Assembly: GCA_944990035.1 (NCBI GenBank)
Contig: CALYLX010000112.1
Location: forward strand, 868,001-932,000
DNA: 64,000 nucleotides
Reading direction: 5' to 3'
Source: Clitopilus passeckerianus
Lineage: Eukaryota > Basidiomycota > Agaricomycetes > Agaricales > Entolomataceae
The position numbers and the translations under genes are program-made. Every line of letters begins with the position of its first letter. The first letter of the stretch is position 1. The notes under the pieces were generated by a model. The model did no database searches. It was given only the letters and a program-made list of their open reading frames with translations, and had not been told where the DNA came from. Positions 6,189 to 22,822 of this stretch are shown here, piece after piece.

Positions 6189-9100
6189 ATGGGGAAGGCT
6201 CAGAAGAAGACAGGAAAGGGCCGCCTTGACAAGTACTATAAGCTTGCAAAGTAAGCCTCCAAAGATTATGGTCTTACCACCTTTCTAACTGCTTTGAACA
6301 GAGAACAGGGCTACCGAGCTCGTTCCGCTTTCAAGTTGATTCAACTAAACAAAAAATATGCCTTCCTAGAGAACGCAAGATGTACCATTGATCTTTGTGC
6401 TGCCCCGGGAGGCTGGCTGCAGGTAGCAAGCAAGTACATGCCAGTGAACAGCGTCATCGTTGGTGAGTACTTTTCGATTATAAACCCTGACCAGGCTCTA
6501 ACTCTGGGCAGGCGTCGACTTGGTTCCAATCAAGCCAATCCCTCGTGTCGTGACATTTGCCGCCGATATAACAACGCCAAAATGCCGCACTCTCATTAGA
6601 AGTGAACTCAAGGACTGGAAGGCTGATGTTGTTCTCCATGATGGTGCACCAAATGTCGGAACTGCCTGGATCCAAGATGCCTACACCCAATCTGAACTTG
6701 TGCTCATGAGTCTGAAACTTGCGGTCGAGTTCCTTACAAAAGGTGGTACCTTTGTTACGAAGGTCTTCCGAAGTACCGACTACAATAACCTCATCTGGGT
6801 TTTCAATCAACTCTTTGGTAAGGTTGAAGCGACAAAGCCTCCCTCATCGAGGTGCGTGCCTACCATTGAGACCATCAGATTCCGTTTAATAGCTGTGGGT
6901 TAGAAATGTCTCTGCCGAGATCTTCGTAGTTTGTCGTGATTTCCTGGCGCCAAAACACATCGATCCCAGATTCCTCGACCCCAGACATGTATTCAAAGAG
7001 ATCTCTTCAATAATAACGACGCAAACGGAGGAGGGCACTTCCATCGCACCTAACGCGCAGGCCAACGTATTTCAACCGGAGAAAAAGCGCAGACATCGCG
7101 ACGGTTATGCGGATGGCGATTACACCCTATTCCATACGATAAATGCGGCAGACTTCATTCGGAGTATGGACCCAGTCAATCTCCTTGGGTCAGGGAACAA
7201 AATCTCGTTTATCACCGATGAAGAAAAGGGGTACGATAAATGACTTTATTGTCATTACAACCCGCCTCTGATTCTCGTCTAGGTGGTTGAAGTTGCCTAT
7301 AACCTCAGCCGATGTGAAGGCAAACTGTGACGATCTCAAAGTCTTAGGCAAGGGTGACTTCAAAACCCTGATTAGATGGCGTTTGGCTCTGCGCCAGGAG
7401 GTAAGGGTAAACACATTATGTGGAGTGGCAGGGCTAACAAAATATCCGACTGAAGCTGGGACTAGATAATAAAGTCACGGAAACAGAAGATCTTGTGGAA
7501 GTTGCCGAAGTCGAGGAACAGGTCGATGAGGAACAGCAAATTACCGAGGAGGTCAGTTATATGGTTTACTGGCCTCGAACAACCATTAAATTGTTTGTAG
7601 CTTGAGAGGTTGAACTCTGAAGCCGCTGCACGGGCGAAACGGGACCGGCGCAAGGCGAATGAGATACGGACCAGGACTATCCAACGGATGCAGTTACAAA
7701 TGACTGCCCCACTTGATATTGGTCTGGAACAGGCGGACATGTCTCTCGGTGGTCAAGACGACATATTTACCCTCGACGACAGCAATGTGAAGCGGGTGGC
7801 AAAATCGAGGAGGGCTCTTGAGACATCGACTATGGAAGATGCAATGGCCGAATCTGACTCCGATGGTGCAGAAGGAGAGGATGACGAGGATGACGAGATC
7901 CTGAATTCAGATGAGGAGAGGGAACGGCGAGCTGAGGCACTCGAAGCCGAAATGGATGGTTTGTACGATGCTTACCAGGAAAGGTTACGAGAGAGGGATG
8001 CCAAGTTCAAGGCCAAGCAAGCGAGAGAGAAAAACCCAGAAAGAGAGGAGTGGCATGGAATTGGGAACAAGGACGATGATGACGATTCGAGCGACGGGGA
8101 GGGCGGATGGCGGGATGGGGTTGACGATAGCTCATTTGATGATACCTCAGATGAAGGTGATGAGGACGAGGAGGAGGTGCCTCACGGAGGGAAGAAGCGA
8201 CGACTTCCGCCTACCGGAGATACCCCAAAAACAAAACGTTCGCGGACCGATGGCCACAAGACGGCTGCTCAGGCAGTCAGTCAAACTGCGAAGGTGTGGT
8301 TCAGCCAGGACGTCTTTGCCGGGGTCGATGGTCTAGATGACGCAGGGCAAAGCGATGAGGATGAAGATGTTTGTGAGTCGGACCCAGAAACAGATATAGT
8401 GTGTCCCCTCCACCCGTCAATTTTGTCGTCCCGTTAATTCCCCTTATCAGGACATGGAAGAGTATGAGACAGATGAAGACGACTTCGAGATCGTACCCCA
8501 GGATGCGGAAGCTGATGCCGACATGTGGGACGTGGACGATGAGGATGAAAATGCTGTGAAACGAGCAAAACTAAAAGGTTTGGGTATGTCGCATCGGTTT
8601 CAAAAGTCCAACTCATCTCTTTTTAGCGCTCTCCCTCGACACTCCAGAGGCAGTCACTCTAGCGCAGCAGCTGGTGAACCGCCAAACGACGAAGACCCAC
8701 CTCATAAATGAAGGCTTCAACCGTTACTCGTTGAACGCGAAGGACGGACTACCATCCTGGTTCCTCGACGATGAGTCGAAGCACTACAAGCCGAACATCC
8801 CTGTCACCAAAGAAGCAATGGCAATTCTTCGCCAAAAGCAGCGTGCACTTGACGCCCGACCGATTAAGAAGGTTGCTGAAGCCAAAGCGCGCAAGAAATT
8901 TAAGGCCCATCAACAACTGGAGAAGGCGCTTAAGAAAGCTGAGGGTGTTAACTCTACGGCTGACATGTCCGAACGCGAGAAAGCTCAGCAGATAGAAAAA
9001 CTCATGAGTAAGGGGAGATCCAAGGCTAGGCAGAAAAAGAAGGAGATCAGTGTCGTTGTTGCCAAAGGCTCTCATAAGGGTATCCAGGGGCGGCCGAAAG

Positions 9101-9255
9101 GCGTGAAGGGAAGGTATGTTATGGTGGACGCGCGTATGAGGAAAGAGGTGTGTTTCCCGTTTTCTTTTCCATATCCCCTAAGACTCATCCCACGAATCCA
9201 GGTTCGAGCAAAGAAGCGCGCTGAAAAAGCAAACAAAAAGCGGCGAAAGGCGTGA
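6189..9255 (+). CDS. SPB1: AdoMet-dependent rRNA 2'-O-methyltransferase SPB1
   Basis: Ten exons: 6189..6250, 6302..6462, 6512..6851, 6904..7230, 7283..7400, 7456..7551, 7601..8398, 8451..8577, 8627..9147, 9202..9255, giving 867 residues. The start is fixed by the conserved [21 protein letters not shown]. The N-terminal FtsJ domain has [12 protein letters not shown], the SAM-binding [14 protein letters not shown], the [10 protein letters not shown] segment and [11 protein letters not shown] (K-D-K-E type active site). The middle and C-terminal parts (acidic DDDDD/EEE stretches, then Lys-rich helices ending [14 protein letters not shown]) match the Spb1 C-terminal domain. Family role: methylates the 25S rRNA A-loop in nucleolar pre-60S particles. 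No frame defect. Confidence 0.95.
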
Positions 9256-9323
9256 TGTATTAATATCTGGATGCATTATATGAATTCTATAAACTAGAAT
9301 AGATGGCGTCAGAATTTTGGTTT

Positions 9324-12071
9324 CTAAAATAATTCCTTGTCTTCAACGTCCTGTAGGGGGCCCCTTGATACGGGTGGGCTGCTGAGCGAATCCACGGTTG
9401 AGAGGAGGGATCGCCACGATATCTCAGAGGCAGGACCAGTATAAGAGACCTACAAAATACTTCAGCTATAGGCTTGAATACCAGCGAGGAGACTTACATG
9501 ACATAATTTCTGTGTTTGGCCACTTCCGAGATCCAGCACATTTTCTACGACGGTGGAAACGTTGTCATCGGCACCCTCAATCGGTTGGCTTTCTTGTCGG
9601 ATGTTATATGACGCGTCAAGTCCATATGTTAAGCCGCGTTGTTTTATGACAAGGGGAGGTTCAGGGCGGGGTAGGCCATCTATGGTCAAGCTAGCGATGA
9701 GTAGGTCAGGAAGCTGTCTTCTAGTCGTTTGATGCAGGACATACTGTGCTCGTAGTTGTTCAAAATACTCATGAAGTTCGTTGGGCCATTCATCCTGCGC
9801 TAGCACAGATGAGTTGGTGAAGGTAAAACGGACGTCCATTGTCCTAAAGAAAGGTCAGGTTGAACCGGATTAAGAGTTGGCATGGACAAACCTTGAAGGC
9901 ATAGATAAGTTTATATCGAGTGCTGCCCCCAATTTGCACTCCGGATCCATGCTAATCTGGTGGGATGATGGCGCCGGTGAGCTAGGCTGGCCAGAGCCCA
10001 TTGTTCCGTCGTCCAATTCAGATTGAGCTGCTTCGGAGCTAGCCTCTTTCAATGGTGAGGTAGTTGCAGCGTTCAGTGCGACACTGAACCTCATGAAAGG
10101 CCTTGTACTGCTAGATTGGGCCTTCGTGTCAGATTTAGAAACTGCACGATATACAAGTCTGTGGGACATCTGCGGGTGGGTTATGGAGCTCCCAGAAAGC
10201 TTAGCTGGCAGGCTAATGAAGGAATTGGATATCATTCTTGATCCGTGTTGGGCTATGCGTACTCTCGTACCTAGGTATAAATAGCTGCCTTTCCGGGTGG
10301 TCCGCAAGGAATTTCATCACAGCTTGAGGAGCCTGGGAACCCAGCAGCGGTGGCAAAAGTGATGGCAATTGACTGTCCCCAATGATCACTGTATGCCCGA
10401 AACTGGAGAGTCATTGGTCATTGTCTAAAGCGGATTAATGGTTGCCACATACGAAGCTGTTACGTCAGTTGCGAAATGCTGATGCTGAGAGACCGTCTCA
10501 TAAGCACGCTCAAGCACGTCACACAAACGGTCTTCAGATCTACAAACTAATGAGATATACCAGACAATGAATGGAGGATGCTACTAACCCTGTGGCTCCA
10601 CTGACAGGCTGGCTCTCGTTCAGCGGTCCCTGTGAAGAGTCGAACATTGTACCGAACATGCGCTCTACTGTCCGTAGACGGAAGACATTGGGCGAACGTA
10701 CAGAGGCGGGCAGAGGCTGTGGAGAGTAAAAGGGATAGAAGGCAAAACTGCCTTGTTGAGTGGCCTCGTGCTCGGACTCTAATATTCCTTTGCCACTCGC
10801 ACTGCTGCCTGAGAAATCGACAAAGGCAGAGTGACATTCGTTTGCCTGCTGATATTCCGGTCAAAAGACACTTGAGGGGAGGGGCATAGCAAATACCGAA
10901 AACGTTGCTTGAAGCATTAATTTCTTGGCGTAATGAGCTGACTGGGGGGAACTAGATCTGAAATGAAGTTTAAGCTAGTGCTTGGTTAGCATTCCTGTTG
11001 AGACCTGAAGCAAGCGACGCACGACGCCATCAGCCGGACTCTCTACGAACACGCCAGAACTCCTCGAAATGCGTTGAAGCGTGGTCCCATCGATGACCAC
11101 TTTAAGAGGCAGAGCGAAATCCTCCTCACCAATGTCCTAGGAAATGTCAATAGAAAGAAAGGTATTCATTGACCTAGAACAACTTACCTTTTTAATTGCC
11201 TCAACATGATCCGTGAGCTTTTGAACGGACGCCTTGACCCCCTCTACCTTCAAGGCTAGTGGATATGGAGAGAATGATACATGGACGTTATACTGGGAGG
11301 ACAGTGCAAGAAGATCGCTCCCGTCTAGATGGTGTCAAATGGAAATAAATTCAGGTGAAATCAATGTAAGACATACCTTTTCCCAGCATGAGGAAGGCCT
11401 GCTGCACATCAAGTGGAAATGCTGGCAAGGGACTAAATACTTACCCTGGAGCAAATCAACAAATGACACCTACATTTGAAGACAATATCCGTCCATTCCT
11501 TTCGTTTTTTCCGAATATCCGCAACCGATGGCCACCCCCATTGCTTTTCAACGATTGTTGCCACATAATGCCACTTGGTACGCTTGCCTTTTGGAGGATC
11601 AATGTGGTACAGAGAAACGAACTGTCGGAATTGCTGCAGACTAAACGTCCGCAACAGCGACTCAATCAGCTCTGCATATTGCTTTTCGTATTTGGGGGTG
11701 TCTGGTGCCGCATGCCCGGGTGGCTTGTAGCGTTCAATGTCTGCCAATGTGACCTCTCGGCTCCCAGAATCGATTTGCTGGAGGAACTCTTCGGCTTTGG
11801 ATGCACCAAGCGGATTCCTAGTTGTTTCCTTCTCTGTCTCTGCATTTAAGGCCCCCCCTTCGTTCTGTTCCTTTTCCTTCTGTGATGATCTAGAGCGCTT
11901 CTTTGCTTTCGTCGCATAGTGCCTATAGCTGGCACAGTGCCTTGACGAGAGTACCGGTCGTGCAGCAAAGTAGAACGTAGCTCGCGAACCATGGCTTGAC
12001 GCAGAGCTTATGCCTCCAATGAATAGTCTTGAGCTAGCATAGCACAGAGAGCGACGAGAGAGAGGCAACAT
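9324..12071 (-). CDS. SLS1: SLS1-like mitochondrial inner-membrane-bound gene-expression regulator
   Basis: Eleven exons, minus strand: 11474..12071, 11377..11421, 11188..11324, 11005..11136, 10897..10941, 10589..10848, 10453..10539, 10271..10402, 9892..10212, 9498..9843, 9324..9449, giving 742 residues, in line with the family. The N-terminus is Arg/Ser-rich and reads as a mitochondrial presequence (MLPLSRRSLCYASSRLF, later RHYATKAKKRSR). Then comes the family core: AEEFLQQIDSGSREVTLADIERYKP, ELIESLLRTFSLQQFRQF, KWHYVATIVEKQWGWP and LSSQYNVHVSFSP. Sls1 links transcription, membrane insertion and translation of mtDNA-encoded subunits at the inner membrane. The start codon lies only 65 bp from a transposon inserted upstream, so its promoter has been split. 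Assignment rests on motif memory, not a search. Confidence 0.85.
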
Positions 12072-12128
12072 GCACCAACTGGACCGTCCAACGGTCTCTT
12101 GACTTCTGAAAACGCGAGTAACTCGTAT

Positions 12129-12136
12129 ACGAATTT
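12129..12136. repeat. Target-site duplication, left copy (ACGAATTT)
   Basis: The 8-bp word ACGAATTT directly abuts the left terminal inverted repeat and is repeated exactly at 18068..18075, directly abutting the right one. Eight-bp duplications are known for hAT, P-like and KDZ-type cut-and-paste elements. Confidence 0.9.
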
Positions 12137-12166
12137 GGCACTTTAACTATAGTTGGGGGTTCGCGA
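12137..12166 (+). repeat. Left terminal inverted repeat of the transposon
   Basis: Starts GGCACTTTAACTAT and runs to CGCGA. Over 30 bp it matches the reverse complement of 18038..18067 with four mismatches (positions 15, 17, 24, 25), all transitions. AT-rich subterminal DNA with repeated ATTAATTAATT follows inward. Confidence 0.9.
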
Positions 12167-12439
12167 AGCGTTTCGAAAAAATTAATTAATTAATTGCCGA
12201 TGGAGCGAGGGAGAACGGAAATTAATTGATGAGGTACATGTACTACCGTATCGTAGCAACCACCAGCCCGACGAGACCAAAGAAATCGGCAGGAAATCAG
12301 TGAACGGGTAGCCTTACCAAAGAAAAGTATTGATTATATTGCAATTGAGTATCGGAATGCGTTTCGTAGACTGCAAAATGTTTTCCGAGTCAGAATTAGC
12401 ACTTGAACACCTACACAGACAGAAATATCAAACATACCT

Positions 12440-15400
12440 TCATGAACCGCTTGCACTGGAGCCAGCAAAGTTTGGACAGTAGTGTTCTCCGCCTCTCCTT
12501 ACATTTGTCTCCGCCACAGCAAAGACAAGTTCGGGCTTGCGGTACATCACCCGTGATAGGCCCAAGTTTGGACCTGGATGAAAATCACTTGGTTGAGCCC
12601 GTTTCTTCCCCTTGTCACGAGAGCCTGAGGATGCTGACCCTGCAGCCACTGGCAGGGTTTGTTGGAAACGGTGCGCTGAAGAATTCTTGAACACAAGTGC
12701 AGTCGGAGCCTGACTACCAGTGCTGCTTCTAGGTCCACTCTGCTCTGCCGGTGGGTTGGATGTATTGATCATTGTCCAGTCAGCGGGTATAGCTGGACGT
12801 GGTAGCGGGAGAGCCGTGATTTGAGCAGCAACCAGAGTACGCTCAGCAATTGGGATAGGTGGGATAGCAGAGCGGTCTGGAGTAAGATTAGAGGCAACTT
12901 GCTGGAATGTAGCACGATAGGGTTCGAAGCTGTTCTTCTCATTTCTTGTTTCCAACCATGATTTATAGAAGTTCTTCAAGTGTTCAGGAAGCTAATGGAA
13001 CAAATATGGAGCACTTAGTTAGTACTATCAACGTATGTTCAAGTACTACATAGACATACCTTGTAGAACACTTTTACTCCGTCAGATTTTGCAGACCATT
13101 GAGCGGTCAATGTTATCCAATTTGGCTTTAAACCATGTGTAAAGGGACCATCCGGCCTGAGGAACTCTCTGAACAAAGCACGTTCCTCTTGGGTGTGGAC
13201 GGGAGAACAGCAAACCGAGTTTCTTGTTGTATAGCAAGGTTATAGTGGCGGATTTTGTTGTCTTTGGCATGCTGAACGGAAAAGCTGTCCATACCAAGGG
13301 TTTGTTTGGAAGCAGGAGACAGAGGAAGAATACCAAAGGTCTCCCGGGATGGTCGGTAGTTAGTACCGTTGACCCACCCAACAAGAGAAGGTTCCAGGGT
13401 AGTTGGGTCAAACATGTCTCGAGTAACATCGATAAGGTCTGCAAGGTGGTTCCGAGTCCAGATATCAAATGATCCTTGAAACGGCTTTCCTGTGCGGTTT
13501 AGAGTCCCAACCTAAGTAGTTTAGAATGCCACTGTACTAAGCTTGTAAGGATAACAGTACTTACTACAAGGTTGTGATGACTGCAGTAATCACGAAGGAG
13601 GTTGGCTGCAAACTGCGGTGAGGCACAATATGAGCCAAAGCGCCTTGCTATGTTCTGGTGCACCCCACCCTCAACTCCATTTGTGCCCCGAAGACAGTGA
13701 TAGAGTTGAAGACCAAACTTGTCTTTGCGATCGGGAGTGTAGAGTTTGACTCCACATGGGTCAGAATAGTAACCCGCATGGATGTTCTCAAGGATGTTCT
13801 TTGCCTTCAAGAATGATGCTTCATTGAAAAGTGGCTGACTGGTTGTCGCATCAACAAGTGGTCCATAGGTACGGATGACCTGTGCAACTCGAGGAGCTAG
13901 AACATCGGCCCGGGGGACAAACCGTCGAACACGCTTCCAGACCCAGTTGGACTTCCAGAGAACCATCTGATCCCAGGTGATACCTTGAGTAGCTAAGAAC
14001 CGCTCTACTGCAGCCTTATCCTCTGGGTCCGGAATGAAAATAGCATCACGAAGAGCCCGGGCAAAGGCATGACGCAGACCATGAGTTCGTGAAATCTTGA
14101 ACTGATCCATAAGATGCCAAATGTCCCCGAGCACTCGTGAGCGTAACTCTGGGTCTGAGTAGAGACCAGAGACGGTAGCTGCAGTAGTGGCAAGGGCAGC
14201 CGGGATGTATTTGTCTGCCAGAGACATTGCTGCAGGATCAGCAGCTGATGATGCTGTCAACTGCTCGGTCTCCGCATCGTGGCTGATCAATGCTGGCCAT
14301 TGAAGCCGCTCAATATCATCCATACTCTCCTCCTCAGATAATAAGGAGGGATCAGGATGGGGCTCAATACCTTCAATAGGATCAGAGTAGGGATCATGGT
14401 TGGGAGTGTAAGGGTGGGGTGGAAGGGGGCAGCGGGGTAAATCACGAACAGGTGCAATACCAAGTGCTATTTGAACATCCCGCATATCACAGAGCATCCG
14501 GTAAGGAAGAGGCTGAGCCACTTCAGAGATAGCTGTGTCCGCTTTCGAGGGTAATAGGGCACCTCGGACCAGGTATGCAGGTTGGATAATGGCCGTAATA
14601 TTGATGAGAGTGCGGGTGCGGGTGACGTTCACACCATTGTGCTTCTTGACGCTTGCACGATCTGGTGCAACGTAGCCAATGGCCACAACAGAAGAGCCAT
14701 CCCGTGAGAGCAACTTCACCTGAGTGCCAGGAGGGGTGTCAAGGGATATGGGACGCTGTGAGGCCACACTGGTGATGTGCTCTTGGAGGGTCCAGGTTGC
14801 ATATCCGTCAAGGCTTGCATACCGAATTGCATCACTGGATAGTTCATCCTCAACCCAGGCTGTACTAATGCGAACAGTTTCATTCTTGGAAATGTATCGC
14901 TTCAACAGAACGCCAACAAGATCCTGCAGAGAGGTGTTGGATCTTTGAGTCAGGTTGCGTTCATGGGCCATAGCGCCAAGCTCAATGGCTCCAGAAAATG
15001 GAGGGATGTCACGTTTTGTGTCAAACCCACAGTTTTTGAAAAGCCGGGTGAAGTCAGCTTTAATATGGACACCGTATTTTCGGATCCGAGGGCTTCAAGC
15101 AAGGCCAGCAAGGCTGAGGGAGGGTTGAGGTATCCAGTGGCTGTAAGAGGAAGTTTTGAAAGCTATAAAGTATTTAATTGATGAACATAGTTGCAGTCAA
15201 TGCAGCTTACACAAATAAGATAAATCTTCTTATCCACAACAAGTGTAACAACGGCAACGTAACCCTGGATTCCTTCATCGACCGGCCATTCCATGTCCAT
15301 CCCCACATCAAAGTATTCTCCATCTCCAAGCCGACTAACCTGCTCCATTACGAGATTCATCTGGAAGGTGATCTGGAATGATGACTCCAGAATAACGATT

Positions 15401-17871
15401 GTCCAGTCCAAAGGTATGACAAGGGCATCCAGTGTAGTCGATGACGGTATAGGCTTGACATCACGACAAAGAGACGGAAACACTTTCTCGAGCTCTGCCT
15501 TGTCACCCCGAACATTATCTGTGAAGACCAGTTCAATATCATCATGGCCATACTCTCGAAGAGAGTGAGGAATGGTTGCCAATGCCGGCATGAACTGGTT
15601 GTGGGCCTTTGTGGGAGTGAGGGTCATGGTTCGAACCTCGTTGTACTCATTGATGCCGGTATGTAGAGCACCAAAAACGGGCTCGCCGTTCACCTTCCCG
15701 ATGTGCTTCGGAACCTGGAAAACAACGAGCACCTTGATAAGCACCCATATGATGTGTTGGAGAAAGGTTCATACCTTGAAACTGTGGTCTATCGTCAGTA
15801 TCCGGCAAGACAGCATTGCCATATGTTGGTCGATCTCGCATGCATGTCTTTCCATAAATGCATTGTAGAGATCTCCAAAGTAGCGCCCTGAGGGGACGTA
15901 ACCTGCATACTTAGCACGGTCATTCCACAGCCCAAACCGGGGATGCTGCACTAGCAGTCCTCTTATGGACTCAGTTTCCATCCGACTTTTCACGAGCTCG
16001 TAGTACAGCAGCTGGAGTTTTTCATGGCGACGAATGTAGAATGTACGAATCATGGCCGCAAAGGGAGATGGCCCATGACCGCGTTGAAAGCTGGATCGAA
16101 GGAGAGCAATCAGGCGGTCGGTAACACCGCAACGATGAGTGAGGTAGAATGTGAATTGTGAGGCAACAGCAGGGGAAGGGCATCGAGGAGGGCGGGTGAC
16201 CAGCTTTGATAAGTCTTCTTGCATTCCGAGCGTCCGCACTTATATCGGTACCCGATGATATAGATGTTCTGGTCAATGTCAACAATTCTTCGAGGCGAAT
16301 CCGTCCAGCCGTTGAGCTGCAATGCGACAGGTATGTGATTCCCAGCTGTTCGCCCAGCTTTGCGACACTCTGGGCACGGGATGCTCTGGTTGTCGACAAA
16401 GAAATGCGGAAGCCATACGAACCAGGTAGGTTCATAGAAGATCTCGGGTTCAATTTGAAAGATGCGTGCGGCCTTGAAGAGCGGATTTTTTGGCCGAATG
16501 AAGAACGATCCGTTCTCATAGCAGGATGGCTGCTTGGAACGGTTCCTGTCGGCCTCCTCACGGAGGTGGGTGCAGATTTCCTTGTATTTGGATTTGAGCC
16601 AGTGGGGTAGCGTCGAGTTCGGTTGTTTGCTCGTTGCGGGAGACATCTCGTCGTCGTCTGGGAGGGTCCCGAAGTTGTCTGCTTCGTCCTCTCTGTCCTC
16701 TCCTTCGCCCTGAAAGGCATCCGTGCCACCCACTCCCAAATCCTGGTCCAACCCACCGTCGAAATCATCGAAATCGTAGAAATCACAAGTGAGCTCCACC
16801 GGCTCGGTGGAGTTCTAGAAGTTACATCCGGCAGCGGATGTAACTTCCTCTGGTTTGTTGGAGCTGCTGGTGTTCCTGCTGAGCAACGGTTAGCGTCAAA
16901 ATCCAAGCAAATAGTGAAATGCAACTCACTGGTGCCGAAAGCGCGATGCTCGTGCCGTACGTCTTTGTCACGTAGCCTGGGGTCGACTACATTGAGTTCT
17001 GGGTAGGAAATAGGTGTTAGCATGCTTATATATCTTCGATAAAGTGAAATGAACATACCTGGATTGGCCGGCTCTTCTGTGAGATCTCTCCCTTCCATCG
17101 TGCTCTTATTGGCAGTTGCCGGCCTCTTTCCTTTCTCTCCAGTCGTGGTATTTGCTTGGTTTGTTACTAAGATATATTATTAGAATGTAAGAGTGTCAAT
17201 TTTACCAGAGAACATACATGGTAGTTCAGTAGGTGTGCCATGGCGTTCACTTGCGGCGACGCTGGTAGCACGCGAATGAGAAGAGAAAACCCTAGGTTTG
17301 TTAGTCAGGAGGCCTTCGAACATATGTTGAGTGATCACATACCTTCGAGCGATATCTGCCTTGTATTTCGAGGCGGATAAATAGCAGGAGATGAGTCGCG
17401 AGACTCGCTGCCTGATCCAGTCTGAGCACGAGACAAGCGCTTGTCAGGGCGCTTGTCAACGGCCGCGCTTGGTGCATTTGGCAAAGGTTCGGCCACTACA
17501 ATAGGTGGCGAGGCTGCTGGGGCATGCTGAGCCAAGGGAGTTGTGCCAGGCTCGTTGTCTGTAGGTGGGATGGATCAGAATCTCGTTTGGTTGCTCTTAC
17601 ACGTGCGTGAACGTACCAGGAGCCGTGATTGGCTGGCAAGAGGCCTCGACAGCCTTGTTATGGGCGTCTGATTGATGGAAGCAGCTGTCAGCGCTGCGTG
17701 GACTGAATAAGGTTGCCAACACTCACCTGGAGCCGTGCTCGATGCTGCCACCCTGGCCTTTGCAGGTCGGCCAACGGGCCTTCCGGTCGCGGAAGGGGCG
17801 CCTTTCCTATTCTTGGTCCCTTTCGGGCGTCCTGGACCGCGTTTGGTCCTTTCAGTCGCGTCTTGCTCCAT
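12440..17871 (-). CDS. Transposon-encoded AT-hook / DUF6729 / candidate DDE transposase with DEDDy 3'-5' exonuclease, probably frameshifted
   Basis: Read from 5' to 3' on the minus strand. AT-hooks (KRGPGRPKGTKN, GRPVGRPAK; about 17750-17850). Linker exons in 16.8-17.6 kb. A zinc region at 16.2-16.5 kb with CPEC...NGW...PRRIVDIDQNIYIIGYRYKC...C, which matches my memory of DUF6729. ILTIDHSFKV (Asp at 15787-15789). VFTDNVRGDK (Asp at 15517-15519). A complete DEDDy exonuclease: DMEWP (15297-15289), KADFTRLF (15053-15055), YASLDGYA (14807-14809). RGTNGVEGGVHQ (Glu at 13670-13672). A Cys cluster near 12500-12530. The long exon 13499..14971 is intact. Single-base losses are inferred in G/C runs near 16172, 13201 and 12560. 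Terminal exons and the exact start (17871 or 17964) are uncertain. The transposase role is inferred from the element's structure. Confidence 0.75.
16794..16847. repeat. Two adjacent perfect hairpins inside the transposon gene
   Basis: First, CTCCACCG-GCT-CGGTGGAG (16794..16812). Second, a 13-bp perfect inverted repeat GAAGTTACATCCG with the 4-base loop GCAG (16818..16847). They sit in the linker-coding region just upstream of the acidic stretch that precedes the zinc region. Confidence 0.75.
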
Positions 17872-17949
17872 AAGAGGACGTGCTGATTGTTGGTTGTCGT
17901 GAGCTGGTCGTCGTTGACAGATGGCCGCCTCCTCATTGCCTAAATTAGT

Positions 17950-18038
17950 AGTTAGCCGGAACATTAATAGTTAGCCGGAACACGAGGACTTAAAGTTACT
18001 CAAAAGAGTAAGTAGACTTAAATTAATAAATTAAGTCT
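17950..18038. repeat. Subterminal direct repeat and hairpin at right end of transposon
   Basis: AGTTAGCCGGAACA occurs twice, at 17950 and 17969 (19-bp spacing). Closer to the end, AGACTTAA and TTAAGTCT form an inverted repeat (18014..18021 with 18031..18038) abutting the TIR. Such subterminal repeats often bind transposase; here that is inference. Confidence 0.65.
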
Positions 18039-18067
18039 CGCGGGCCCCCAGCCATAGTTAAAGTGCC
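18038..18067 (-). repeat. Right terminal inverted repeat of the transposon
   Basis: Reverse complement begins GGCACTTTAACTAT and ends CGCGA, pairing with 12137..12166 over 30 bp with four mismatches. The terminus GTGCC at 18063..18067 is followed at once by the duplication ACGAATTT. Confidence 0.9.
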
Positions 18068-18075
18068 ACGAATTT
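18068..18075. repeat. Target-site duplication, right copy (ACGAATTT)
   Basis: Exact copy of 12129..12136. The following 93 bp lead to the eIF3b start codon. Confidence 0.9.
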
Positions 18076-18168: not shown

Positions 18169-20751
18169 ATGCCGGGAACAACTGTCGACGATATTGACTA
18201 TTCGGACATTGATGCAAAGTAAGAAGCTAAATATATCTCTAAGGATTAGCCTTGACCTTCTATAGATACCAAGTTCAATACGATGAAAGCCTCGACAATA
18301 CTATCGTGATAGATGGTGTACCAAGTATCGACAAGTCCAAGCTGGACAAGCTTCTCGCAAAGATCTGCAAAGATTTTGGAAAGAAGGGTGTTTCAGTCAA
18401 ACCAGATGATATTTTCATGCCTTGGGATGAGAAAACTGGCAAGAACAAAGGGTAAATGTTTCTTCATCTTCCGTCAGACCCTTGTCACTCATGCCCTACG
18501 TAGATACCTGTTCATCGACTTCCGCAACGTAGAAGAGGCAAATACCGCCCTCGCAGTCCTCCAAAATCATGCCTTCGATGCCAAGCACACATTCAAGCTA
18601 AACCGATTTACCGATGTTGATACATTCGCTGATTTGGACGAGGAGTACATCGAGCCAGAAGAGGAGGAATATACACCCAAGGTAGAAATATTCATCCTTC
18701 TCAATATCTCTCACCTAACTTTACCTTATAGGAACATCTGCGAGCGTGGCTAGCCGACGCCCAAGGTCGCGATCAATTTGTGACTTACAGAGGAGAAGAA
18801 ATCCTCATTCACTGGCATGGAAAACCTTCTCAGAGCGAAGTCGCTCACAAACCTGTAAGATTCTTTCCTCAATCAGTTCATCAATCGCTGGAACCACCAC
18901 TGTAGGACTGGAAAGATTTCCTATATGTTGCTTGGTCTCCTCTGGGAACATATATCGCGACTCTCCACCGGCAGGGTGTGCGCCTATGGGGAGGTCCCTC
19001 GTGGAAACCTCAACAACGTTTCGCCCATCCCCTTGTCAAACTCATTGACTTCTCTCCATGCGAGAACTACCTTGTCACCTGGTCAAACGAACCCATTGTC
19101 GTGCCCGAAGGTGCTTTGCAAGGACCTCAGTATTTCTCTCCGGAGGACGAAGGCAACAACATCGCTGTCTGGGATATTAAATCCGGAAACCTTCTTCGTA
19201 CATTCTCAAGCCAGCATGACAATGAGGCGCTAGGAGCTAAAAAGCAGATGCAGTGGCCCGCACTAAAATGGAGTCCAGATGACAAGTTTGTTGCACGTGT
19301 CACCCCAGGCCAGATGATCAGTGTGCACGAACTTCCCAGCATGTACTTGCAAGGAAAGAAGAGCCTAAAGATTGAAGGTGTTATCGATTTCGAGTGGTGC
19401 CCACAAGGTGACAAAGACCGCGAAGAAGCTGAAAAAGCGGCGGCTGGCAAACCGTCCACCAAGAAGCCCAGAGAAAACATGCTTGCTTACTGGACACCAG
19501 AAGTCGCAAACCAACCTGCACGAGTAACTCTCCTGGCCTTCCCCAGTCGCACAATTTTGCGTCAAAAGAATCTCTTCAACGTGACTGAGGTATGGCTAGC
19601 AGATGGCCTATCTACACATGACTGAGATTTTGGCGTTTAGTGTAAGCTATTCTGGCAAAATCAAGGAGACTTCCTATGCGTCAAGGTTGATAGGCACACC
19701 AAAACAAAGAAGTCCATTTTCTGCAATCTTGAAATCTTCCGAGTTCGCGAAAAAGACTATCCCGTCGAGGTCGTCGAGCTGAAAGGTAAGCACACACACA
19801 AGTTTTCGTTGTGGAAGAGCTCTTTTTTACCACTCTTAGATACGGTCCTTGACTTCTCCTGGGAGCCTAAAGGAGAGCGGTTCGCAATTGTATCGAGCAG
19901 CGACCCCAATCTCGGTAACCCCGGCCCAGGGATAACCATCAAGACCGATGTCAGCTTCTACCAACTTGATCGTACCAAAAACGACTTCAAGACCCTTCGT
20001 ACGTGCATTCATATCTGCCCAGATCCTCTTCTTATCAAAGTGTAGGTACCCTGCCATCTCGCACGAGCAATGCTATTCGGTGGTCCCCTAGAGGTCGTCA
20101 TGTTGTTTTAGCTACCGTCGGCTCCTCAAGCAAGTCTGAACTTGAGTTCTGGGATCTCGACTTCAATGTTGAAGAACAAACCAGGCGAGAGCCCCTCAGC
20201 TCGAAAGAGGAAGCCTGGGGTGCTGGCATCCAATTGCTTGGAACCGCCGATCACTATGGGGTTACAGACGTCGAGTGGGATCCTAGTGGCCGTTATTTGG
20301 CTACAAGTGCAAGCGCTTGGACGCACACTGTTAGTGACGGAGCTCTATTTCTCCACAGATACTGATTTAGGGTTTTCAGCTTGAGAATGGTTACGCTATC
20401 TGGGACTTCCGTGGACAGGAAATCATCAAGCACGTTCAAGATCGATTCAAGCAGTTTATCTGGCGTCCACGACCACCTACACTTTTGAACAAAGAAAAAC
20501 AGAAGTTGGTTCGAAAGAATCTACGTGAATACAGTCGCGCGTTCGACGAGGAAGACGCCGCTGAGGAAAGCAGTGTTAGTGCCGAGCTTATTGCGTTACG
20601 CAAACGGTTGGTCGATGAGTGGAATGCTTGGCGTGCTCTCTGCAAGCGCGACGTTGACGATCGTACTTCAACTGAAGAGGATGATAAGGAGGAGATTGAG
20701 GTTTGGATCGACGAAGTTATTGAGCAAACTGAGGAGATGGTGATCGAGTAG
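18169..20751 (+). CDS. PRT1: Eukaryotic translation initiation factor 3 subunit b (Prt1)
   Basis: Nine exons: 18169..18218, 18266..18451, 18504..18681, 18732..18854, 18906..19589, 19641..19785, 19840..19998, 20046..20329, 20380..20751, giving 726 residues, normal for fungal eIF3b. Seen: N-terminal RRM (TIVIDGVPSIDKSKLDKL, GYLFIDFRNVEEANTAL). A WD40-type propeller follows with FLYVAWSPLGTYIATLHRQGVRLWGG, LIDFSPCENYLVTWS, WPALKWSPDDKFVARV and VEWDPSGRYLATSAS. The charged C-terminal helix region starts FIWRPRPPTLL. eIF3b is the scaffold of eIF3, binding the 40S subunit and eIF3a/g/i/j in the cytoplasm. The start codon lies 93 bp from the transposon's right duplication, so its promoter region has been separated from SLS1. 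Confidence 0.96.
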
Positions 20752-21067
20752 CTGATATCTGTCGTATAACGTATTGTCCAGCTTGCGTGAATACACTCAT
20801 CATTCCACTGTCTCTGCCAAGGTCTGCCTAAAGTAATATCCCCACAGCCCTGGACAAAAATTCTCAGGTTTCCTTGTAAAATGCAAATGGCACCACTACG
20901 CTTTTTTCCTGGTGCCACAGCACCAGCAGCTGACCCGGTAACAGCCGAAAACGTGATCAACTTGGATCTTATCTGACAAGGACTTGAGCTCAGATCTACT
21001 CTACCACCTTCCACCAAGCACAGTATCTCACCGCAACCTCTGCACTCAAACGTCTATTCGTCTTACC
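20752..21067. other. Intergenic region between eIF3b and HapX
   Basis: 316 bp, tandem arrangement, so 3' UTR of eIF3b and promoter of HapX. No RNA gene, repeat or ORF with support was seen. Confidence 0.5.
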
Positions 21068-22822
21068 ATGGCCTCCGCTGAGTTGGATGCTACTGCTTCA
21101 TCCTCTACAAAGCTATGGGCGACAGGTCAAACTCTACCCATCTCCGCAGCATTGTGTCCTGACATTTTTTCTGCGTCCAGCATCCAAAGAATGGGTCATT
21201 CAGCCTAAGCCCAAGCCTGGTAGAAAGCCAAAGAAGGACGCTTCTAAGGCCGAGAGCGAGGTATATAATTTATGGCTCGCATATTATAGCTCATCGGTCT
21301 GACTCATATGCAGTCGACCGCTACCGACAGTAAGGGACGAAGGGTCCAGAACAGGTTATACTTCCTCTGACCATGATGTTCAATTTTATTGATCGGAGAC
21401 TCGTTTAGAGCTGCTCAACGAGCTTTTCGCGAGCGAAAGCAATCCCAATTAGCTGAACTCCAGGCCAAAGTTCAATCCTATGAACAAGGAGAAATTGAAC
21501 GGAACGTAGCTCTCCAGAATATTGCTAAGCGTCTTAAGGAGGAAAATGAAGCTCTCCGAGTAGAGAATCAATCTCTCATGGATAAGCTTGCCCAGCTCGG
21601 TCAGTCTCTTGACCCCGCCACCGAGATTGGAAAGAAGCGGCCCCGGCCCAGCTCTCCTACTTCCCTCACAGCGAATGTGAATACAAAGAAGACGAAAACT
21701 CAGGAAACATTGGTTGAAGAGCCTATGTCTATTTTGTCATACCCCCCCACCCCGCCGTCTATGGTTCCTTCACCAGCCTCAGACGGATCTTCTGAGAACG
21801 CTGACTCTCCGTTTGGTTATGCTTCCCCACTCGATACCACTCAATCAAATATTAGCCCCATGCTCGATTTTTCAAGCTCTATGAAAATGACACAATTTGG
21901 TGGGAGCAACGAAATATCCTTTGGCTGTGGATTCTGTGCTGAAGGCGGGCATTGCGTCTGCAACGACTTCATTTCCCCTTCCCTTGACGCCCCAGAGCAA
22001 CTGGACGGCTATAAGGCGTCTGCTGAGGGAACAATCCGCTACGACAGCCATTTCCCCTCCGCTCCTGAACGTGTTGAACCTCCAGTGGCGAAACTTCGAA
22101 CCTCTATTCTTGACCGCCTCCCAGCATTCCAACCTGCTGTTCCTTTACGCCGCAGAAATCCCCCTTCCTCTACCACCAATATTTTCCCCGTCCGACCAGC
22201 TCCTAAGCCCTCAACCATACTTGCAACTTGTTCCGGAGACCCCTCGAATTGCCTTGCCTGTGCTGACGACTCCTTTGGGAAAGCATTTTGCTCAGCCATT
22301 AGAGAGTCTGTCGCAAACGAGACGCCTTGTTCTCCTGACTGCGAGACAGAAGCGGACATGCCTCCCAAAGCCTGTCGCGGACAGTGCTGCTCCGCGAAGA
22401 CAATGCCCCCCAATTCAAATCAACCTAGCCCCACAGAAAATGAAACTATACCCACCAGCGATGCGTGGCGCCAGATAAAAAATCACCCAAATGTGTCCTT
22501 TGCTGATCTCGCCTTACTCGCTGACGTCGTCTCACGTAGGTCCAAATGTACCGGACCTCGCGTGGTTATATCACCTGCGCCGGGATCTATCACTCCAGAA
22601 CGGACCATTTCCCCTAGCCAGCTCAAGAGGCAGCCCTCTAACGACACCATGTTATCGGCTGGCTTTGATAGCCAACCCACGATTTACGACCGTGTTCGAC
22701 CTACTTCTCTCGCCTCCCCTACCCCAATACCCAAAGAAGACTGGATCCGCCAGAGAGTTTGCGAGGTTCAGAAGGATGCGGTGGAAACTGCGTTGCGTAT
22801 GCTTGACCACAAGTTTGCTTGA
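21068..22822 (+). CDS. hapX: HapX-type bZIP iron-regulatory transcription factor
   Basis: Exons 21068..21125, 21181..21260, 21314..21354, 21409..22822, giving 530 residues. Seen: the Hap4-like CCAAT-complex-binding motif KEWVIQPKPKPGRKPKK (22-38). A bZIP basic region with NRAAQRAFRERK (59-70) is followed by a coiled coil with QSYEQG and KRLKEENEALRVENQSL. Cys-rich clusters: CGFC...CVC from residue 233, C334 with SGDPSNCLACADDSFGKAFC, and further Cys (CSPDCETEADMPPKACRGQCC). This combination defines HapX, which partners the CCAAT-binding complex and senses Fe-S supply. It represses iron use under starvation and promotes storage under excess. Splicing of exon 1 to exon 2 is needed to bring the Hap4 motif in frame. 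Confidence 0.92.

Follow-up and report, generated by a model that had tools for sequence, protein, structure and literature searches.

A probable Dada-type class II transposon with inverted terminal repeats and an exonuclease-bearing candidate transposase in Clitopilus passeckerianus

Introduction

A gene with a DUF6729 zinc region and a 3'-5' exonuclease domain lies between two inverted repeats at positions 12137..18067 of the 64-kb stretch of the Clitopilus passeckerianus genome analyzed here (the window). The question raised by this locus is whether the gene is a host gene, the cargo of a transposon or the transposase of one, and to which superfamily such an element would belong. Dada transposases have been described as D-D-E enzymes with a DxxH motif and an N-terminal CCCC zinc motif in the main text of Kojima and Jurka (2013; PMC3706591). 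Based on the ends, copies, empty sites and protein motifs reported below, it was concluded, with a probability of about 0.86, that the element represents an autonomous class II family of the Dada type, recently active in this basidiomycete, and that its one protein is the transposase.

Results

Ends and copies of the element

The element (12137..18067, 5,931 bp, gene on the minus strand) begins with a 30-bp terminal inverted repeat (TIR) starting GGCAC (12137..12166, plus strand) and ends with its counterpart at 18038..18067 (minus strand). The two TIRs match at 26/30 positions, the four mismatches all being transitions, and they are flanked by a perfect 8-bp target-site duplication (TSD), ACGAATTT, at 12129..12136 and 18068..18075. 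These bounds, repeats and duplication had been proposed in an earlier, sequence-only reading of this DNA; all proved correct on base comparison, and the boundaries of the other copies agree with them independently. When the window was scanned for 8-bp direct duplications enclosing at least 22/30 inverted matches at a spacing of 0.2–12 kb, the 12137/18067 pair was the only one to pass, and the same scan of first-order Markov resamples of the window yielded no pair in 20/20.

The source assembly (64.8 Mb) was searched for further copies. Sixteen end-to-end copies with 99.5–100% identity and identical first and last bases were found which, together with a tandem pair on contig C18, make 18 two-ended copies, so that the expectation of further copies with the same ends and 8-bp duplications was borne out. 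The left-end TIR pattern occurred exactly 23 times in the genome, compared with 0 for its reversed control, and the pairwise substitution among the 16 copies was 0.12% on average and 0.37% at most. TSDs were present in 17/17 insertions checked (L001–L016 and L018), 15 of them 8 bp and two of them 9 bp long, and their sequences all differed. The insertion L003 contains an additional 152-bp right end within its duplication, and the C18 tandem pair has CTTTTTGTG on its flanks and CTTTTT between the two copies. At L028, where only a diverged right end was present, no short TIR element was found.

The same 336-bp internal deletion, which takes out the stretch with the catalytic E (see below), is present in two copies of the window family, L018 and L019, and different 8-bp duplications surround them; the simplest reading is that a deleted copy was mobilized by the protein of another copy. 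ACT is present at both edges of the break in L018 (about position 2487), a 3-bp microhomology such as interrupted gap repair would leave.

Other repeats were observed within this family. A 7.2-kb long terminal repeat (LTR) retrotransposon is nested at L017:1002–8217, with 469-bp LTRs that are 99.8% alike, the termini TGTTA...TAACA and the duplication GTTTC; since the same end sequences border the L019/L042 interruption and the L020 truncation, it seems to have entered the family more than once. At the start of contig C157, a copy without its first 45 bp (L041) begins 50 bp past the point of insertion of L015, in DNA with 95% similarity to the L015 flank; either this copy has been rearranged, or the assembly of the contig end at this site is responsible.

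Empty sites

For 15 insertions (L003 was left out), 150 bp of each flank were joined with the duplication kept once, and the assembly was searched with these junctions. With 40 of the 54 candidates scored, a second genomic place was found across the junction at 85–96% identity for 12/15 insertions, and no junction-spanning empty site was found for L007, L012 and L013. Base-level alignment revealed that the target was unchanged and single in seven of the 12 empty sites (L001, L004, L006, L008, L014, L015 and L016), and in the remaining five the site was altered by substitutions or a gap. Element sequence was found in none of the 12 loci (0/12).

The window locus is among those with an empty counterpart, and ACGAATTT is present as a single copy in the empty allele L029. 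Window positions 9001–11000 corresponded to C10 46421–48414 at 94% identity and positions 20001–22500 to C10 51481–53974 at 96%, and each of these two flank queries matched just two genomic places. Probes of 2–2.5 kb were informative in this comparison and 10-kb flank probes were uninformative. The empty junction was located at C10 49403–49705, and the C10 interval is ∼5.9 kb shorter, which is the length of the element; we infer that the collinear C10 allele is the other haplotype of the dikaryon. The empty sites sought by the sequence-only reading were thus present in the same assembly, and exact ends, multiple copies, 8-bp duplications and empty sites together uphold its assignment of the element to class II.

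The gene and its protein

The motifs of the protein, all encoded on the minus strand, were observed in the following order. An N-terminal region (17752..17871) contains AT-hook-like GRP motifs; GRPKG or GRP recurs in many homologs. It is followed by an open frame with the DUF6729 zinc region (16110..16814; CPEC at 16365–16382 and CGRSEC at 16215–16244). The first catalytic D (DHSFK, 15775..15789) is present in 37/42 aligned homologs (gap in 5) and the second (VFTDN, 15514..15528) in 42/42. A DEDDy 3'-5' exonuclease domain (14798..15297) then precedes the DxxH motif, with Exo I as DMEW (15286–15297), Exo II as KADF (15050–15061) and Exo III as YASLDGYA (14798–14821). The DxxH motif itself (DIWH, 14114..14125) has D in 37/42 homologs (N in 3, gap in 2) and H in 40/42 (gap in 2), and the third catalytic residue, the E of GTNGVEGG (13664..13687), is E in 35/42 (K in 2, gap in 5). 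The C-terminal coding region (LPEHLKNFYK onward, 12440..12991) contains a Cys cluster at 12501–12527 (CxxCx4C), which takes the form CxxCx4Cx8C in 13/16 copies. The spacing between the first and second D is 70 residues in 24 of the 30 homologs in which both were located, and 144 residues separate the last zinc Cys from the first D in protein P0009. In the genome search, a 531-residue exon was recovered as one open stretch at seven places.

Pfam matches in the window copy fell below their cut-offs, both for the exonuclease model PF01612 (E 0.0019, 18.5 bits against 23.6) and for the DUF6729 model PF20499 (E 3.5e-5, 23.9 bits against 27). Elsewhere in the genome, PF20499 exceeded its cut-off in 11/11 scored hits, all within the lineage of the window element, in a search that was not exhaustive, given that the window copy itself was missed. 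The exonuclease domain resembles the WRN exonuclease in fold and in its aligned catalytic motifs (PDB 2e6l and 2fbt). For the predicted DUF6729 model (pLDDT 75), no solved relative was found, the best Foldseek match having an E of 0.66, and no paper naming DUF6729 turned up in a literature search. A near-perfect palindrome, AAGTTACATCCG...CGGATGTAACTT, is situated at window positions 16819–16846, immediately upstream of the DUF6729 frame, and may represent a structured element or an insertion.

Previously, this gene had been regarded as the cargo and the sole transposase candidate of the element. It is indeed the only gene seen there; judged by its motifs, it looks like a transposase rather than cargo.

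Related families

A second family (family 2) comprises six nearly identical 6.1-kb copies, which align with parts of the window element at 65–67% identity, with the ends GGCACTCTAACTATGG and 8-bp duplications in four of the six. Eight identical bases are found in the left flank of L023 and the right flank of L024, as if two family-2 copies had recombined and exchanged flanks, or the assembly had been misjoined.

Five copies of a 1.11-kb family have GGCAC at the left end, GGCAG or GGCAA at the right end and perfect 8-bp duplications (5/5); because of its size, this family is probably non-autonomous. Its ends matched at 23 places, with only five two-ended pairs and the others one-ended under the search pattern used.

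The relative on contig C146, with 48% identity over the 531-residue exon, is a relict between LTR retrotransposons; it retains its right end, and no left end was found. Two near-identical 7-kb LTR retrotransposons in opposite orientations were observed around it (L047–L049; C146 606873–626500). Another relative, L021, has recognizable ends and no duplication.

Insertion targets

No Rfam family was detected at gathering thresholds in 12/12 empty-site loci, and a single tRNA was predicted by ARAGORN in 23 loci, at a distance of about 590 bp from the end of a family-2 copy. No target motif was found across 21 sites, with at most 0.26 bits per column around the duplication. These results suggest that dispersed positions, too, are open to insertion by a kind of element known to target small RNA genes, and indicate that strict small-RNA-gene targeting is not general to the exonuclease-bearing Dada architecture.

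Neighboring genes

The left neighbor is an SLS1-like gene (PF20776, E 0.0013, below cut-off). The right neighbor has an exon that matched the eIF2A family PF08662 (E 4.8e-11, above cut-off), WD40 models being below theirs, and is presumably the gene for eIF3 subunit b. Given that the element lies between these divergent genes (window 11433–12146 and 18169 onward), 102 bp from the apparent start of the eIF3b-like gene, it may affect the promoter of one allele.

Discussion

Several observations weigh against an autonomous Dada-type family with a single protein as its transposase. The frame of the window copy is interrupted by changes at several homopolymers, which differ in length among the copies. 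This pattern fits long-read assembly error, and the coding state of the window copy therefore cannot be judged; the earlier statement that one multi-exon gene fills the interior holds in outline, with these frame changes as its exception. A whole-gene open frame was not established in any single copy, and the limits of the N-terminal exons, including that with the GRP motifs, are uncertain. The VIA-align and Foldseek rows shown for the large model are of the exonuclease type only and have no bearing on the D-D-E part, whose RNase H fold is putative. Two of the six family-2 copies (L023 and L024) lack a visible duplication of their own. Finally, the likeness to Dada is drawn from published descriptions, and the profile search (7,996 candidates scored) named only Agaricomycete proteins.

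Homology and the anatomy of the protein suggest how such a transposase might work. Binding of the element ends is probably the task of the zinc-binding DUF6729 part, together with the AT-hook-like motifs that precede it, and the RNase H-type D-D-E core, which includes the DxxH motif, probably carries out cleavage at the GGCAC ends. The core would then join these ends to staggered target DNA, giving the 8-bp, sometimes 9-bp, duplication. Embedded in this core, the WRN-type 3'-5' exonuclease probably acts by trimming exposed 3' ends; its substrate would most plausibly be the 3' ends of the donor flanks, since the 3' ends of the transposon itself must survive for joining.

For an exonuclease-bearing Dada-type element, the precise termini, the length of the duplication, empty sites and small partner elements are now available, none of which the main text of PMC3706591 defines for its fungal members. 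The role of the built-in exonuclease becomes testable with a mini-element. The results also suggest that many mushroom proteins annotated as ‘hypothetical’ or ‘3'-5' exonuclease’, as well as DUF6729, should be re-annotated as parts of transposases.

Comparison with known systems

The closest published relatives are Dada-1_LB and Dada-2_LB of Laccaria bicolor and Dada-1_ES of Ectocarpus, in which, according to the main text of PMC3706591, a DEDDy exonuclease lies between the second D and the DxxH motif; its authors proposed that the exonuclease processes cleaved 3' ends. The window protein has its exonuclease at the same point and resembles Dada, at the level of motifs, in the DxxH after the second D (catalytic residues conserved in 35–42 of 42 homologs), in a zinc motif before the first D (CxxC...Cx4C here, CCCC in Dada) and in its multi-exon gene, and the 5,931 bp of the element fall within the size range of 4,666–10,979 bp given there. 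The spacings are also close to those described for Dada: 144 residues (P0009) against 135 (Dada-U6_DR) from zinc to the first D, and 70 against 68 between the two Ds. The order of the zinc pairs differs (CxxC then Cx4C here, Cx4C then CxxC in Dada-U6_DR), and the C-terminal CxxCx4Cx8C cluster does not match the published spacing of the Dada CCHC zinc motif.

Outside the protein, the differences are larger. Dada elements with definable termini are described in the same text as residing in snRNA or tRNA genes with 6–7 bp duplications, and TIRs are reported there as not found in the Dada-U6 and Dada-U1 families; in contrast, the window family has 30-bp TIRs, duplications of 8 or 9 bp in 17/17 insertions (8 bp in 5/5 of the 1.1-kb copies) and scattered, motif-free sites. 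According to a 2022 paper, the targeting of Dada is not strict in every case (PMC8869645). The termini and target of the Laccaria elements, absent from the main text of PMC3706591, may agree with those of the window element, and fungal Dada is already recognized by name, 15 families being listed in the repeat table of the button-mushroom genome (PMC7473861). By its predicted transposase, then, the element probably belongs to Dada, although not as a standard member, and is best described as an exonuclease-bearing, untargeted Dada-like transposon, variant in its termini and targeting. Since this layout was published for Laccaria and Ectocarpus Dada in 2013 (PMC3706591), the sequence-only suggestion that the element would define or extend a superfamily holds for the extension and not for the founding.

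It is doubtful that the lineage is distinct at the superfamily level from target-specific Dada, with an obligate two-nuclease transposase whose WRN-type exonuclease would process the donor ends in every cycle. Less likely still is a new superfamily outside Dada, in which the same parts had come together by a separate route with termini and duplications of their own. The TIRs, the TSD length and the absent targeting, all unlike those of the delimited Dada elements described in PMC3706591, would agree with such an origin, as would a profile search that named Agaricomycete proteins only among the 7,996 candidates scored; however, the insertion point of the exonuclease, the zinc motif before the first D and the near-equal spacings are all published there for Dada, including that of the agaricomycete Laccaria.

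The hAT, P, MuDR, Kolobok and IS256 transposases are placed in the C/DxxH group in the main text of PMC3706591. The window element shares with them the C/DxxH motif after the second D and, with hAT and P, the 8-bp duplications. To our knowledge, no transposase of these five groups has an exonuclease inside its core. The Zisupton/KDZ elements of fungi are similar in the 8-bp TSDs and TIRs of Zisupton and in their presence in Agaricomycetes, as described in PMC12730594, and probably differ in their transposase. Given that 8-bp duplications are common to hAT and Zisupton, another transposase of the hAT or KDZ kind might move the element with the DUF6729/exonuclease gene as a passenger. This possibility was rejected as very improbable: the D-D-E and DxxH residues are conserved over most of the 42 homologs, similar GGCAC ends are retained in a related family whose gene has diverged, and no hAT or KDZ Pfam model was listed at E up to 10 in the eight window open frames tested (the HMMER filters drop most matches above 0.1, and Pfam absence alone is not excluding). 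One tandem pair and the nesting of some copies with other repeats might speak for a host gene lying between inverted repeats by chance, or for segmental duplication as the source of the copies. This reading has a negligible probability and is refuted by the 17 sites, each with a different duplication, and by the empty counterparts of 12/15 insertions; the 11 PF20499 hits scored, in a search that missed the window copy, all lie in the window-element lineage.

The exonuclease itself has its nearest structural counterpart in WRN, where the domain precedes a RecQ helicase, whereas in the window element it is located inside the candidate transposase, between the second catalytic D and the DxxH motif.
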